A stretch of 45,063 bases of DNA, from contig JAHWJY010000011.1 of NCBI GenBank assembly GCA_019348135.1, forward strand, positions 1 through 45,063, given 5' to 3'. A program made the translations under genes and the position numbers. Each line of letters starts with the position of its first letter. Position 1 is the stretch's first letter. This DNA is from Actinomycetota bacterium (lineage in GTDB: Bacteria > Actinomycetota > Nitriliruptoria > Nitriliruptorales > Nitriliruptoraceae). Below are positions 18,353-21,790 of the stretch, piece after piece. The notes under the pieces are model-generated. The model made no database searches, was not told the origin of the DNA, and worked only from the letters and a program-made list of their open reading frames with translations.

Positions 18353-18949
18353 TCAGCCGACGGCGCGGTCGGCGGCGAGCAGCTCCTCGCCGAGGCCGCG
18401 GAGGCCGTCGCGGATGCGGCTCTTCACCGTCCCGAGCGGCCGCCCCAGCTGCTCGGCGGCCTCGCGGTAGGTCAGGCCCTGGTAGTAGGTGAGGTGGATC
18501 GCCTCACGCTGCAGACGCGACAGGCGACGGAACGCCTGCTGGACCTCCTGACGGTCCAGGCCCGTCTCGACGTCGCCCCACACGACGTCGGCGCAGCGCT
18601 CGAGGGTGCGCGCCGCCTGACGCTGGTCGCGGTCCCGCGAGGCCTGCACGCTGCGGACGCGATCGATGGCACGCCGGTGGGCCATGGTGAGCAGCCACGT
18701 CGTGGCCGACCCGCGCGCCGCGTCGAACGACGGGGCCTTCCTCCACGCCTCGACGAACACCTCCTGGGCCACGTCCTCGGCGAGGTGGCGGTCCCGCAGG
18801 ACCCGCACGGCCACGCCGAACACGCTCGGGGCGGTCGCGTCGTAGAACGGGCCGAAGGCGGCCGCGTCGCCCGTGGCGATGCGGGCGAGCAGGGCGTCCG
18901 TGTCGTACCGCGGCGCGGTCGATGTCGGGGAGGGGGCCGGGAGCGTCAC
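18353..18949 (-). CDS. ECF-subfamily RNA polymerase sigma factor (SigK/LitS-like)
   Basis: This 198-residue ECF sigma factor has region 2 at about residues 25-100 (FGPFYDATAPSVFGVAVRVL, EDVAQEVFVEAWRKAP, TWLLTMAHRRAIDRVR) and region 4 at about 135-190 (LSRLQREAIHLTYYQGLTYREAA, GRPLGTVKSRIRDGL). The sequence is closest in style to actinobacterial SigK. No RskA-like or zinc anti-sigma gene follows: the stop is 5 nt from the convergent NTF2 gene. Start is GTG 18949 with GAAGGA just upstream. It diverges from a CarH/LitR-type MerR gene, the arrangement seen for litS-litR in Streptomyces, which suggests transcriptional control instead of anti-sigma control. Confidence 0.92.
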   Translation of the reverse strand: MTLPAPSPTSTAPRYDTDALLARIATGDAAAFGPFYDATAPSVFGVAVRVLRDRHLAEDVAQEVFVEAWRKAPSFDAARGSATTWLLTMAHRRAIDRVRSVQASRDRDQRQAARTLERCADVVWGDVETGLDRQEVQQAFRRLSRLQREAIHLTYYQGLTYREAAEQLGRPLGTVKSRIRDGLRGLGEELLAADRAVG

Positions 18950-19025
18950 CAGGATCCTTCAGCGTCGCGGACGACTCGCGGAGGGGACCGGCCCCCGGGG
19001 GGAGCGGTGCTCGCGAGACCGAAAC

Positions 19026-19055
19026 TGTTCATGTACAGTATCTGTACAGAATATA
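19026..19055 (+). promoter_or_regulatory. MerR-gene promoter with double TGTACA operator candidate
   Basis: The 130-nt divergent region between the sigma and MerR genes is GC-rich except for an AT-rich island. It holds two palindromic TGTACA hexamers (19032-19037 and 19043-19048), each followed by G, with 11-bp periodicity, so they face the same side of the helix. They lie between a possible -35 (TGTTCA, 19026-19031) and a -10 (AATATA, 19050-19055) reading toward the MerR gene, spacer 18. An operator inside a promoter spacer is typical of MerR-family control. The same box could act on the divergent sigma promoter. Confidence 0.6.
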
Positions 19056-19079
19056 CGCGCATCGACGACAGGTGGAGCG

Positions 19080-19688
19080 GTGGGTGGCGGTGTCCTTTCG
19101 ATAGGTGAGCTCGCCCGGCGTGCCGGGGTGAGCGAATCGACCCTGCGGGCCTGGGAACGGCGCTACGGGCTGCTCGAGCCCGAGCGGACGGCCGGCGGAC
19201 ACCGGCGCTACCGCCTCGAGGACCTCGAACGGATCGCCCAGCTCCTCGAGCTCGTCGACGACGGGCTCGCCGTCGGCACCGCGGCCGCACACGTGCGCGC
19301 CGGCGACGCGCCGGCGATCGCGACCGCGTCCGCCCGGAACCGTGCCGCTCCCGCACGCCCGGCCGCCGAGCCCACGCCCGACGTCGACAGCGTCGCGCTG
19401 ACGCTGGCCTACCGCGCGGCGCTGCGCCTGCTGCAGCTGCGCCACGCCGAGGAGGCCACCGCCGTCCTGACCGACCTCGTCACGGCGCTGGGCGGGCGGC
19501 CGGTGTCGGCGGCCGACGCCGGCGAGGACACGCTGCCGCTGGACCTGTCGTTCGGGTACGGCGAGCCGGTGCTGGTGGCCGCCGCCCCACTGAGCCTGGC
19601 CCGGATGCGGCTCGAGTTCGTGCTCCCCGAGCTCCTGGAGGGCGCCCGTCACGTCGTCGACCTGCTCCGCGACCAGGGATCGGCGTGA
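19080..19688 (+). CDS. MerR-family regulator with CarH/LitR-type DNA-binding domain, lacking the B12 domain
   Basis: This 202-residue protein starts at GTG 19080 (AGGTGG 7 nt upstream). Residues 6-75 are a winged helix-turn-helix of the MlrA/CarH/LitR subgroup: LSIGELARRAGVSESTLRAW, then ERRYGLLEPERTAGGHRRY. After an Ala/Pro-rich linker (about 80-100), residues 103-202 form a separate alpha/beta region (LTLAYRAALRLLQLRHAEEA, LPLDLSFGYGEPVLV) that has no CarH light-sensor or cobalamin motif and that I cannot name. It likely binds the TGTACA pair just upstream and so regulates itself and the divergent sigma gene. Its natural partner may be the B12-binding protein encoded tail-to-tail 10 nt away. 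Confidence 0.88.
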   Translation: MGGGVLSIGELARRAGVSESTLRAWERRYGLLEPERTAGGHRRYRLEDLERIAQLLELVDDGLAVGTAAAHVRAGDAPAIATASARNRAAPARPAAEPTPDVDSVALTLAYRAALRLLQLRHAEEATAVLTDLVTALGGRPVSAADAGEDTLPLDLSFGYGEPVLVAAAPLSLARMRLEFVLPELLEGARHVVDLLRDQGSA

Positions 19689-19698
19689 CCCCTGGGGT

Positions 19699-20727
19699 CT
19701 AGCTGAGCAGGCCCAGCAGCACGTCGTGCGTCCGTCGGAGGTGCGACGGTAGGGCGGCCTGGACGGCGCGGAGCGACTCGTCCACCACGGACGCGGGCAG
19801 CCCGCGGCTGGTCAGCACCTCCTCGAGCCACACGAGGTACTCGACCATGACGCGGTCGTCGCCGGTCATCACCGCGGCCTCCAGGAACCGCAGGAGGAAC
19901 TGCAGGTCCTCGTGGGTGCGGGCCAGCTGCGCCGCGTCGTAGTCGCGGACCGCCGGCCACCGCTCCGCGAGCCGGTCGGTCGCCGCGACGACGATCTCGC
20001 CCCGCTCGGCCTCGAGCGCCAGTGCCTCCGGCTCGGGCGCCGGCGCGTCCGGCCCCGGTGCCTCACCGGCGGCCCAGCGCTCCAGCAGGATGTCCCCGGC
20101 ACCGAGGTCGGCGGCCCAGCCGTCGGCGCCGAGGGCCCGCGCCCGCCGCTCGTCCGGCCCGTAGCCCGCGCCGGTCGCGAGGACCGGTACGCCCTCGCCG
20201 CGGACGGCACGGATGGAGCGCCCCGCCCCGGGCAGGTGCATCGAGATGGAGCAGCAGACCACCGCGGCCGTCCAGTCCTCGCGCCGCGCCGCGGTCGCGA
20301 GGTGCGGCGCCGGCATCGACCCACCGAGGTTCACCACGGCCCAGCCCCGCGAGCGCAGGCCCGCCGTCACGAGCCGGGTCGCCAGCACGTGCCACTCGCC
20401 CTCCGCGCACACGACGGCGATCCGCCCCGTCCGCGCCGGGAGGTCCGGGGACCGCCGGTCGAGCACACCCACGACGGCGTCGATCACGGCCGTGGCGGCG
20501 TGTTCCTGGGCCACCGTCCAGCGGTTGGTCTGCCACAGCTGCCCGATGCGCCGCTGGACGGGGGCGACGATGTCCGTGACGAACCGTTCGACGGTGAGGC
20601 CACCGGCCAGGAGCCCGTCGGCGAGCTGCAGCGCCGCGGTCAGGTCGGACCGGCTGGCGAGCTCCAGGAGCCGCTCGTGGTCGTCGTCCCCGCCGGCGGC
20701 GGTCGTCCCGTCCGCGTCCTCGGCCAC
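19699..20727 (-). CDS. Free-standing cobalamin-binding protein with CarH-type light-sensor motif
   Basis: This 342-residue soluble protein has no DNA-binding domain. Residues about 17-92 form a helical bundle containing W65 and E75-H76, the same W-x9-E-H spacing as the adenosyl-capping residues of Thermus CarH (W131, E141, H142). Residues about 101-220 form the Rossmann-like B12-binding domain. Its motif is E111-W-H113-V-L-A where DxHxxG is usual, with H113 as the expected lower cobalt ligand. Residues about 237-342 are an extra helical domain (HEDLQFLLRFLEAAVMTGDD, EYLVWLEEVLTSRG). The residue after W65 is Q66, where CarH has His132. It lies tail-to-tail with the MerR gene and is probably its sensor. 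Confidence 0.88.
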   Translation of the reverse strand: MAEDADGTTAAGGDDDHERLLELASRSDLTAALQLADGLLAGGLTVERFVTDIVAPVQRRIGQLWQTNRWTVAQEHAATAVIDAVVGVLDRRSPDLPARTGRIAVVCAEGEWHVLATRLVTAGLRSRGWAVVNLGGSMPAPHLATAARREDWTAAVVCCSISMHLPGAGRSIRAVRGEGVPVLATGAGYGPDERRARALGADGWAADLGAGDILLERWAAGEAPGPDAPAPEPEALALEAERGEIVVAATDRLAERWPAVRDYDAAQLARTHEDLQFLLRFLEAAVMTGDDRVMVEYLVWLEEVLTSRGLPASVVDESLRAVQAALPSHLRRTHDVLLGLLS

Positions 20728-20791: not shown

Positions 20792-21790
20792 TCAGCTGCA
20801 GTGAGGCGGGGTCACCGGGCGTGCGGGGTTCCAGGCGCACGCGCCGAGGACCTCCTCGAGCAGGGTCGGACGGTCGGTCATGATGCCGTCGACGCCGATG
20901 GCGATCAGCCACTCCATGGTGGCTCGGTCGTTGATCGTCCACACGTGTACCGCGAGCCCGTTCGCGTGGGCGTCGCGGACGAAGTCCTCGGTGACGACCT
21001 CGATCCCCTCGAAGGTGACGGGCACCTGCAGCGCCACGTACCGCGGGTTCGGCGCGCCGGGCAGCGGCCCGTCGGCCGAGAGCTTGAAGGCCGCCGCCTG
21101 TGCGGTGGCGACGGCGGTGTCCACGTCCGGCGCGTGGAGCTTGAACCGCTCGACCGCCAGGTCGGAGAACGCGACGACGATGACGTCGTCGGTCCGGTCG
21201 AACTCCGCGAGGAGGTCGGCGAGGAGCTCCTCGTACGGTTCGGTGTCCGGGGCGGTGCGCTTGATCTCGATGTTGATGAGCTCGTCCGGGAACTCCTCGA
21301 GGATCTCGCGCACGGTCGGGATGCGGAAGTCCTCCGGGGCGAACCCCTCGGGCGGGGGCTCGTCGCCGGTGGCGATCCCGCGGTGCACGTAGTCCGCCTC
21401 CGGCCGGGTGCAGCCGAAGTCCGGGTTGCAGGTGCCGGGACCGGGGACGAACCAGTACGCGGCGTCCAGGGACTGGATCTCGTCGAGGGTGAGCTCGTCG
21501 ACCCGGCCGGACCCGTCGGTCGTCCGGTCCACCGTGGTGTCGTGGATGGCGACCAGCTCGCGCACGCCGTGCTCGTCGGGCGCGGTCGCGTGGACGTCGA
21601 TCTCGAGGACGTCGGCGCCCTTCTCCGCGGCGGTCTTGAGCGCGTAGAGCGTGTCGGAGGGTGCCTCGAACTCGCCGCCCTGGTGCGCGATGTTGAGCAC
21701 GCGACGGTCGAGCCACCCCTCCTCGGCCCCCGCGAGGCCGAGGAGCCCGGGCAGGGCGAGCAGGAGCAGGAGGGGGAGGAGTCGCTTCAT
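20792..21790 (-). CDS. Secreted glycerophosphodiester phosphodiesterase
   Basis: This 332-residue protein starts with a Sec signal peptide (MKRLLPLLLLLALPGLLGLA, cleavage near residue 22). The GDPD TIM barrel follows: NIAHQGGEFEAPSDT, GADVLEIDVHAT, AIHDTTVDRTTDG and late ELINIEIKR and VHVWTINDRATMEWLIAIG. It hydrolyses glycerophosphodiesters, probably for phosphate or glycerol recovery outside the membrane. The first motif reads HQGG...PSDT instead of HRG...PEN, a variant that I recall from other actinobacterial secreted GDPDs, so activity is likely retained. Two Cys in CNPDFGC could form a disulphide. It is 49 nt after the HAD gene. Confidence 0.9.
   Translation of the reverse strand: MKRLLPLLLLLALPGLLGLAGAEEGWLDRRVLNIAHQGGEFEAPSDTLYALKTAAEKGADVLEIDVHATAPDEHGVRELVAIHDTTVDRTTDGSGRVDELTLDEIQSLDAAYWFVPGPGTCNPDFGCTRPEADYVHRGIATGDEPPPEGFAPEDFRIPTVREILEEFPDELINIEIKRTAPDTEPYEELLADLLAEFDRTDDVIVVAFSDLAVERFKLHAPDVDTAVATAQAAAFKLSADGPLPGAPNPRYVALQVPVTFEGIEVVTEDFVRDAHANGLAVHVWTINDRATMEWLIAIGVDGIMTDRPTLLEEVLGACAWNPARPVTPPHCS

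Follow-up and report, generated by a model that had tools for sequence, protein, structure and literature searches.

A photocobilin and a LitR-type MerR regulator with a photocobilin-associated domain form a putative two-protein light switch in an actinobacterium

RESULTS

A photocobilin gene lies tail-to-tail with the gene for a LitR-type MerR regulator

In a 45,063-nucleotide stretch of actinobacterial DNA (the window), we find a locus that probably encodes a two-protein light switch, in which a photocobilin would act in trans on a LitR-type MerR repressor and thereby gate an ECF sigma factor. The MerR protein carries, behind its helix-turn-helix (HTH), an undescribed C-terminal domain (CTD) that is found beside photocobilins in other actinobacteria, attached there to quite different effectors. 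The features of the locus are as follows.

18353..18949, minus strand: ECF sigma factor gene, SigK-like, 198 aa (Pfam Sigma70_r2/r4_2; NCBIfam SigK-like)
19028..19049, between the ECF and MerR genes: two tandem 11-bp repeats, putative operator (fit to the CarH operator consensus)
19080..19688, plus strand: MerR-family regulator, 202 aa, GTG start (LitR/CarH-type HTH and photocobilin-associated CTD)
19092..19295, plus strand: MerR helix-turn-helix, aa 5-72 (MerR_1 match at 7-68)
19383..19679, plus strand: MerR CTD, about aa 102-200 (unclassified; co-located with photocobilins)
19699..20727, minus strand: photocobilin, 342 aa (PDB 8j2w match at 1.7e-60 over 18-335; key residues kept)
19729..20022, minus strand: photocobilin Phycobilisome-like bilin-binding globin, aa 236-333 (PF00502; Asp274, Trp300)
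20110..20424, minus strand: photocobilin B12-binding Rossmann domain, aa 102-206 (PF02310; axial His113)
20461..20676, minus strand: photocobilin B12-binding_2 four-helix bundle, aa 18-89 (PF02607; W65-x9-E75-H76)
20792-21790, minus strand: GDPD phosphodiesterase gene (precedes the photocobilin gene by 64 nt)

The ECF sigma gene is divergent from the MerR gene, and the MerR and photocobilin genes lie tail-to-tail with their stop codons separated by 10 nt (19689-19698). Because these two genes are convergent, they share no common transcript; the photocobilin gene may instead be co-transcribed with the GDPD gene upstream of it. The frames of the locus are not due to chance, as their defining domain matches have E-values of about 1e-10 to 1e-71. 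A first-pass annotation of this DNA had described the divergent ECF and MerR genes, a MerR protein of the CarH/LitR DNA-binding subgroup that lacks a B12 domain, and a convergent 342-residue B12 protein with the W-x9-EH motif and His113 and with no HTH. All of these are present; the Phycobilisome-family domain and the tandem TnnACA repeats had been overlooked.

The same annotation had proposed that the two proteins are the two halves of a CarH-type photoreceptor that work in trans. Joint action in trans is supported by the co-location of CTDs with photocobilins, by a fusion in cis, by the co-variation of the two proteins and by another MerR-CTD protein encoded beside a photocobilin, all described below. 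We reject a split CarH in the strict sense, since the B12 protein is a photocobilin and the C-terminus of the MerR protein is a different domain and no remnant of CarH.

The B12 protein has the domains and chromophore residues of a photocobilin

All of the sequence features that we tested place the B12 protein in the photocobilin family. It matches SasPcob (8j2w) at 1.7e-60 over residues 18-335, with 130 of 316 residues identical (41%), and AbPcob (8j2y) at 5e-43, and these two matches span nearly its full length; the match to CarH, at only about 5e-9, is far poorer. PF02607, PF02310 and PF00502 all score above their Pfam cut-offs, the Phycobilisome match (PF00502) with 24.3 bits against a cut-off of 22.2. 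A corrinoid protein of a methyltransferase was also considered and rejected, the matches to corrinoid proteins being weak and far under their cut-offs.

The residues expected to hold the chromophores are conserved. The light signature of W-x9-EH and E/D-x-H is present as W65, E75 and H76 and as E111-W-H113. Indeed, all seven of the SasPcob residues W61, E71, H72, H108, H137, D270 and W296, whose roles are described in PMC10979010, have an identical counterpart in the window protein (W65, E75, H76, H113, H142, D274 and W300, respectively), once the offset between the numbering of the paper and that of the PDB chain was settled with the W-x9-EH motif. The Asp and Trp of the bilin pocket do not vary across the 12 rows of a globin alignment of the family, and the globin region of the window photocobilin has no Cys for covalent bilin attachment. 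In AbPcob, a His replaces the bilin-pocket Asp and bilin is bound weakly, according to PMC10979010; since the window protein keeps Asp274 at this position, we expect it to resemble SasPcob and thus it should be a good biliverdin binder. By homology, we predict that the window protein responds to light and binds both cobalamin and bilin.

In the draft genome from which the window comes (3.17 Mb, 72% complete), only two B12-binding_2 proteins were found, the window photocobilin and a second photocobilin, and thus no ordinary LitR is seen in it. The window genome falls in the same family as genome G024, whose contig is identical, over the stretch compared, to a named Nitriliruptoraceae MAG (L121); the host is therefore an uncultured actinobacterium that belongs or is close to the Nitriliruptoraceae.

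The MerR regulator joins a LitR-type DNA-binding domain to an undescribed domain

The best partial match of the MerR protein in NCBIfam is CarH, and this match is limited to the HTH; similarly, the closest solved structures are the DNA-binding domains of CarA and CarH. When compared with HTHs from LitR-like (MerR-B12) proteins of its class, the HTH is 51-64% identical, and identity reaches at most about 61% over the full length. Pfam finds no B12 domain in the 202-residue protein. As this defining domain was tested for and is absent, the window MerR is not itself a CarH or class I LitR protein; our best reading is that it works like one, with light sensing outsourced to the photocobilin in trans.

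The CTD (residues about 102-200) has no relatives in Pfam or the PDB, apart from a marginal DUF6415 match in one member of the CTD family. An AlphaFold2 model is confident (pLDDT 95-98) and shows an alpha-alpha-beta-beta-alpha order with a long helix at the end, for which Foldseek returned no confident fold match and at best a weak GAF-like hint. The CTD is therefore an undescribed domain and not a leftover of CarH.

The C-terminal domain accompanies photocobilins across actinobacteria

Homologues of the MerR C-terminus were found to share contig positions with photocobilins in a set of 61 relatives. Profile searches with the CTD covered 66 genomes from the class and 397 from the phylum and yielded 26 good copies, 17 of which have a photocobilin less than 2 kb away (0.3-1.8 kb; Actinomycetota genomes). 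For five of the remaining nine copies, the contig breaks off on the side that should hold the partner, and four have no photocobilin nearby (two copies in genome G017 and one each in G316 and G239). In genomes of 2-5 Mb, we estimate that a CTD would neighbor a photocobilin by chance on the order of once in a thousand per copy. The genera in which the CTD adjoins a photocobilin belong to at least two actinobacterial classes. At one Actinomycetota locus (L235:1-1395, G510:C198), a CTD, a GGDEF domain and a B12-binding domain lie in a single frame, which is cut by the contig end.

Both co-occurrence and co-evolution of the two proteins across actinobacteria had been suggested as checks in the first-pass annotation, and the neighborhoods bear out the former, while the distances are consistent with the latter. 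Protein distances among CTDs correlate with those among photocobilins (Mantel r = 0.75, 22 loci; 0 of 20,000 permutations), and the correlation is 0.61 when only divergent pairs are considered. This co-variation supports co-evolution, although shared inheritance of neighboring genes alone could also give it.

The effectors that bear the CTD are most often intact GGDEF cyclases, and include degenerate GGDEF proteins, EAL or GGDEF-EAL proteins, PAS-HisKA-HATPase kinases and the MerR proteins. The closest relatives of the two window proteins are both encoded at locus L063, again tail-to-tail, but there the effector is a histidine kinase. At four loci (L074, L075, L080 and L082), the CTD protein has a degenerate GGDEF half to which Pfam is blind (L074 and L080 scanned); those of L074, L075 and L080 adjoin a photocobilin, while L082 stops at a contig edge. 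These four proteins are probably non-catalytic effectors.

It is somewhat more likely than not that the CTD is a dedicated photocobilin receiver, part of a modular two-protein B12/bilin system in which one kind of sensor is plugged into MerR, diguanylate cyclase or histidine kinase outputs, often with its own heme-degrading enzyme for bilin. The photocobilin might alternatively have its true partner elsewhere, in the CTD-GGDEF protein at the second photocobilin locus of the genome or in the GDPD protein, while the MerR CTD senses a small molecule. The short distance and shared strand of the GDPD and photocobilin genes would suit this arrangement, as would the many photocobilins elsewhere that lie beside SpoIIE/STAS or kinase genes, or are fused to GAF-ANTAR, without a CTD. 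GAF domains frequently bind small ligands, and the weak GAF-like hint in the CTD fold points the same way. However, the nearest relatives of the window photocobilin have no adjacent GDPD gene, and the MerR CTD itself belongs to the family that accompanies photocobilins, including a second MerR protein (locus L116) whose gene has a photocobilin directly after it. We consider this alternative unlikely, and very probably the photocobilin and the MerR protein act together in trans.

Photocobilins also occur in other settings. In large-genome Actinomycetota (L236-L243), the photocobilin has no CTD neighbor; those inspected lie beside STAS proteins and PAS/GAF-type or SpoIIE-like proteins, an arrangement also reported for SasPcob. 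At L137:823-2775 (G004:C136), one protein combines a photocobilin with GAF and ANTAR (RNA-binding antiterminator) domains, which suggests antitermination under light control.

Candidate bilin-supplying enzymes lie at many photocobilin loci

A gene or domain of the ABM family is present in, or fused into, about 14 photocobilin/CTD loci, among them L080:5486-5842 (G000:C79), L063:6352-6825, L065:6263-6643, L071, L118, L122, L123, L133, L134 and L234. The copy at G000:C79, the second photocobilin locus of the genome that holds the window, is most like HmoB and also matches MhuD heme monooxygenases. The window locus lacks an ABM gene, and no canonical heme oxygenase (PF01126) was found in the draft genome, which is 72% complete. 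These HmoB/MhuD-like enzymes may supply the bilin chromophore of photocobilins.

The photocobilin could, instead of light, report the supply of B12, or an oxygen or redox state, through adenosylcobalamin (AdoCbl) binding, with light incidental. AdoCbl binding alone alters the cyclase activity of AbDPcob, as described in PMC10979010, and neither phytoene synthase nor FAD photolyase, the classical light targets, was found in the draft genome; at 72% completeness, however, these absences are weak evidence. Against such a role, the window protein retains both the light signature (W-x9-EH and E-x-H) and the residues of the bilin pocket, whose Asp and Trp are invariant in the family alignment, and the HmoB/MhuD-like genes at many photocobilin/CTD loci are best fitted by a bilin chromophore. 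We regard cobalamin or redox sensing as improbable.

The CTD is joined to a MerR domain at two further loci

A scan of the named genomes brought the total of MerR-CTD fusions to three, the two beyond the window (L116 and L117) both being in Acidimicrobiales MAGs. The L116 locus is the second MerR-CTD/photocobilin pair; by eye, its photocobilin has intact B12 motifs and lacks the Asp and Trp of the bilin pocket. No photocobilin lies within 5.7 kb of the MerR-CTD gene of L117, where an IS110-type transposase (L117:6394-6927) is directly downstream, in the place that the photocobilin has in L116. In both loci, the same membrane-protein gene is transcribed divergently from the MerR-CTD gene; the two loci share an upstream dyad, and there are no CarH-type repeats upstream. 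Neither locus has an ECF sigma gene, so that the ECF sigma factor, which the first-pass annotation had counted in the module, is not a conserved component of it.

The 395 genomes searched in the class to which G325 belongs gave seven CTD loci, and no further MerR-CTD protein was found among them; the model used for this search included the HTH, so that its tally consists mostly of ordinary MerR proteins and only seven matches are CTDs. The MerR version is therefore rare, with two further copies and none more in the 395 genomes. A tree of the HTHs unites the three MerR-CTD proteins (93/71), a grouping that long branches make unsure.

An accidental placement of a MerR/ECF pair beside an unrelated photocobilin gene, to which the convergent genes without a shared transcript and an ECF gene and operator that are not conserved with the pair might point, is very improbable given that the CTD lies next to photocobilins in several genera and is in one case fused.

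CarH-type repeats separate the ECF and MerR genes

In the gap between the divergently transcribed ECF and MerR genes, positions 19028-19049 read TTCATGTACAG-TATCTGTACAG, two perfect tandem 11-bp repeats that fit nnnnTnnACAn, the consensus of the 11-bp repeats of CarH operators (PMC9304148). CarH and class I LitR operators have three to four tandem repeats, while the window has two and a degenerate third. The core, TGTACA-N5-TGTACA, occurs once in the window and in none of 100 shuffles, and is similar to the TGTACA-N12-TGTACA sites of Pseudomonas LitR (PMC9758184). A search of the draft genome that allowed up to 1 mismatch returned no other TGTACA-N5-TGTACA, and thus the likely direct target of the MerR protein is the divergent ECF/MerR promoter region alone. 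With a single likely target, a wider response would be expected to run via the ECF sigma factor, as with LitS in Streptomyces, and the ECF sigma factor is presumed to be the output of the switch.

A scan recognized no sigma-70-like promoter in the ECF/MerR intergenic region. Among SigK-like paralogues from the class, the window ECF sits on a long branch; as both MerR-adjacent ECFs are long branches, the tree is uninformative.

DISCUSSION

We propose that adenosylcobalamin makes the photocobilin sensitive to green light, that a bilin probably does so for red light, and that the photocobilin signals to the MerR CTD by direct contact. Bound to the two tandem repeats, the MerR protein would repress both its own gene and the ECF gene. 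In the dark, an AdoCbl-loaded photocobilin dimer would be present together with MerR on the operator, and ECF and MerR levels would be low. In the light, adenosine would be lost and the photocobilin dimer changed; the altered photocobilin would cause MerR to be released or remodeled on the DNA, ECF sigma levels would rise and its regulon would be turned on. We consider this course the most likely one and the opposite sign of the light response less likely. As described in PMC10979010, light monomerizes SasPcob, and a free photocobilin in its light state stimulates a separately supplied diguanylate cyclase domain in trans.

With the photocobilins of Zhang et al. 2024 (PMC10979010), SasPcob and AbDPcob, the window protein shares the architecture of B12 and bilin-globin domains and all key residues. 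AbDPcob has its diguanylate cyclase in cis, in the order DGC-CBD-BBD (PMC11796333), like the CTD-GGDEF-B12 fusion at L235, whereas in the window the output lies in trans, on a DNA-binding protein of the MerR family. The available text of PMC10979010 mentions neither MerR nor a receiver domain and calls the partner of stand-alone photocobilins unclear, a question to which a conserved partner domain would be a direct, testable answer. Such a domain would show one B12/bilin sensor serving transcription, c-di-GMP and kinase outputs. We found no pairing of a photocobilin with MerR via a shared receiver domain in the literature examined, which did not extend to the 2022 photoglobin survey. The MerR version would be a transcriptional switch predicted to respond to both green and red light, as is sought in optogenetics.

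Two systems are precedents for control in trans. In Rhodobacter, the B12-binding photoreceptor AerR controls a separate DNA-binding regulator, CrtJ, by direct contact (PMC5362033, PMC6199135), as we propose here. CrtJ is of the PpsR type, whereas the window partner has a MerR HTH. To our knowledge, AerR has no bilin-binding globin. In the second system (PMC9758184), PmlR2 is a class II LitR repressor that does not bind B12 and, like the window, has a TGTACA-type operator; its repression is lifted by the separate, adjacent blue-light photoreceptor PmSB-LOV, an anti-repressor. PmSB-LOV is a flavin LOV protein where the window has a photocobilin. Moreover, class II LitRs keep a remnant of the four-helix domain, in contrast to the alpha-alpha-beta-beta-alpha CTD of the window MerR, which has no B12_2 match.

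CarH and class I LitR with LitS are like the window in the type of HTH and in tandem 11-bp TnnACA repeats, of which the putative operator of the window has two perfect copies, and in the Streptomyces litR-litS system, as in the window, an ECF sigma gene adjoins that of the regulator. The window differs in having a free-standing B12 sensor that carries a bilin domain in addition, and a regulator with an unrelated CTD. At L132:1784-3531 (G014:C237), a LitR-like MerR-B12 gene is divergent from a gene for an ECF sigma factor 56% identical to that of the window, and the gap between the two genes holds three 11-bp repeats, GACAAACACTC-GTCAAACATTT-GACAAACCTTC.
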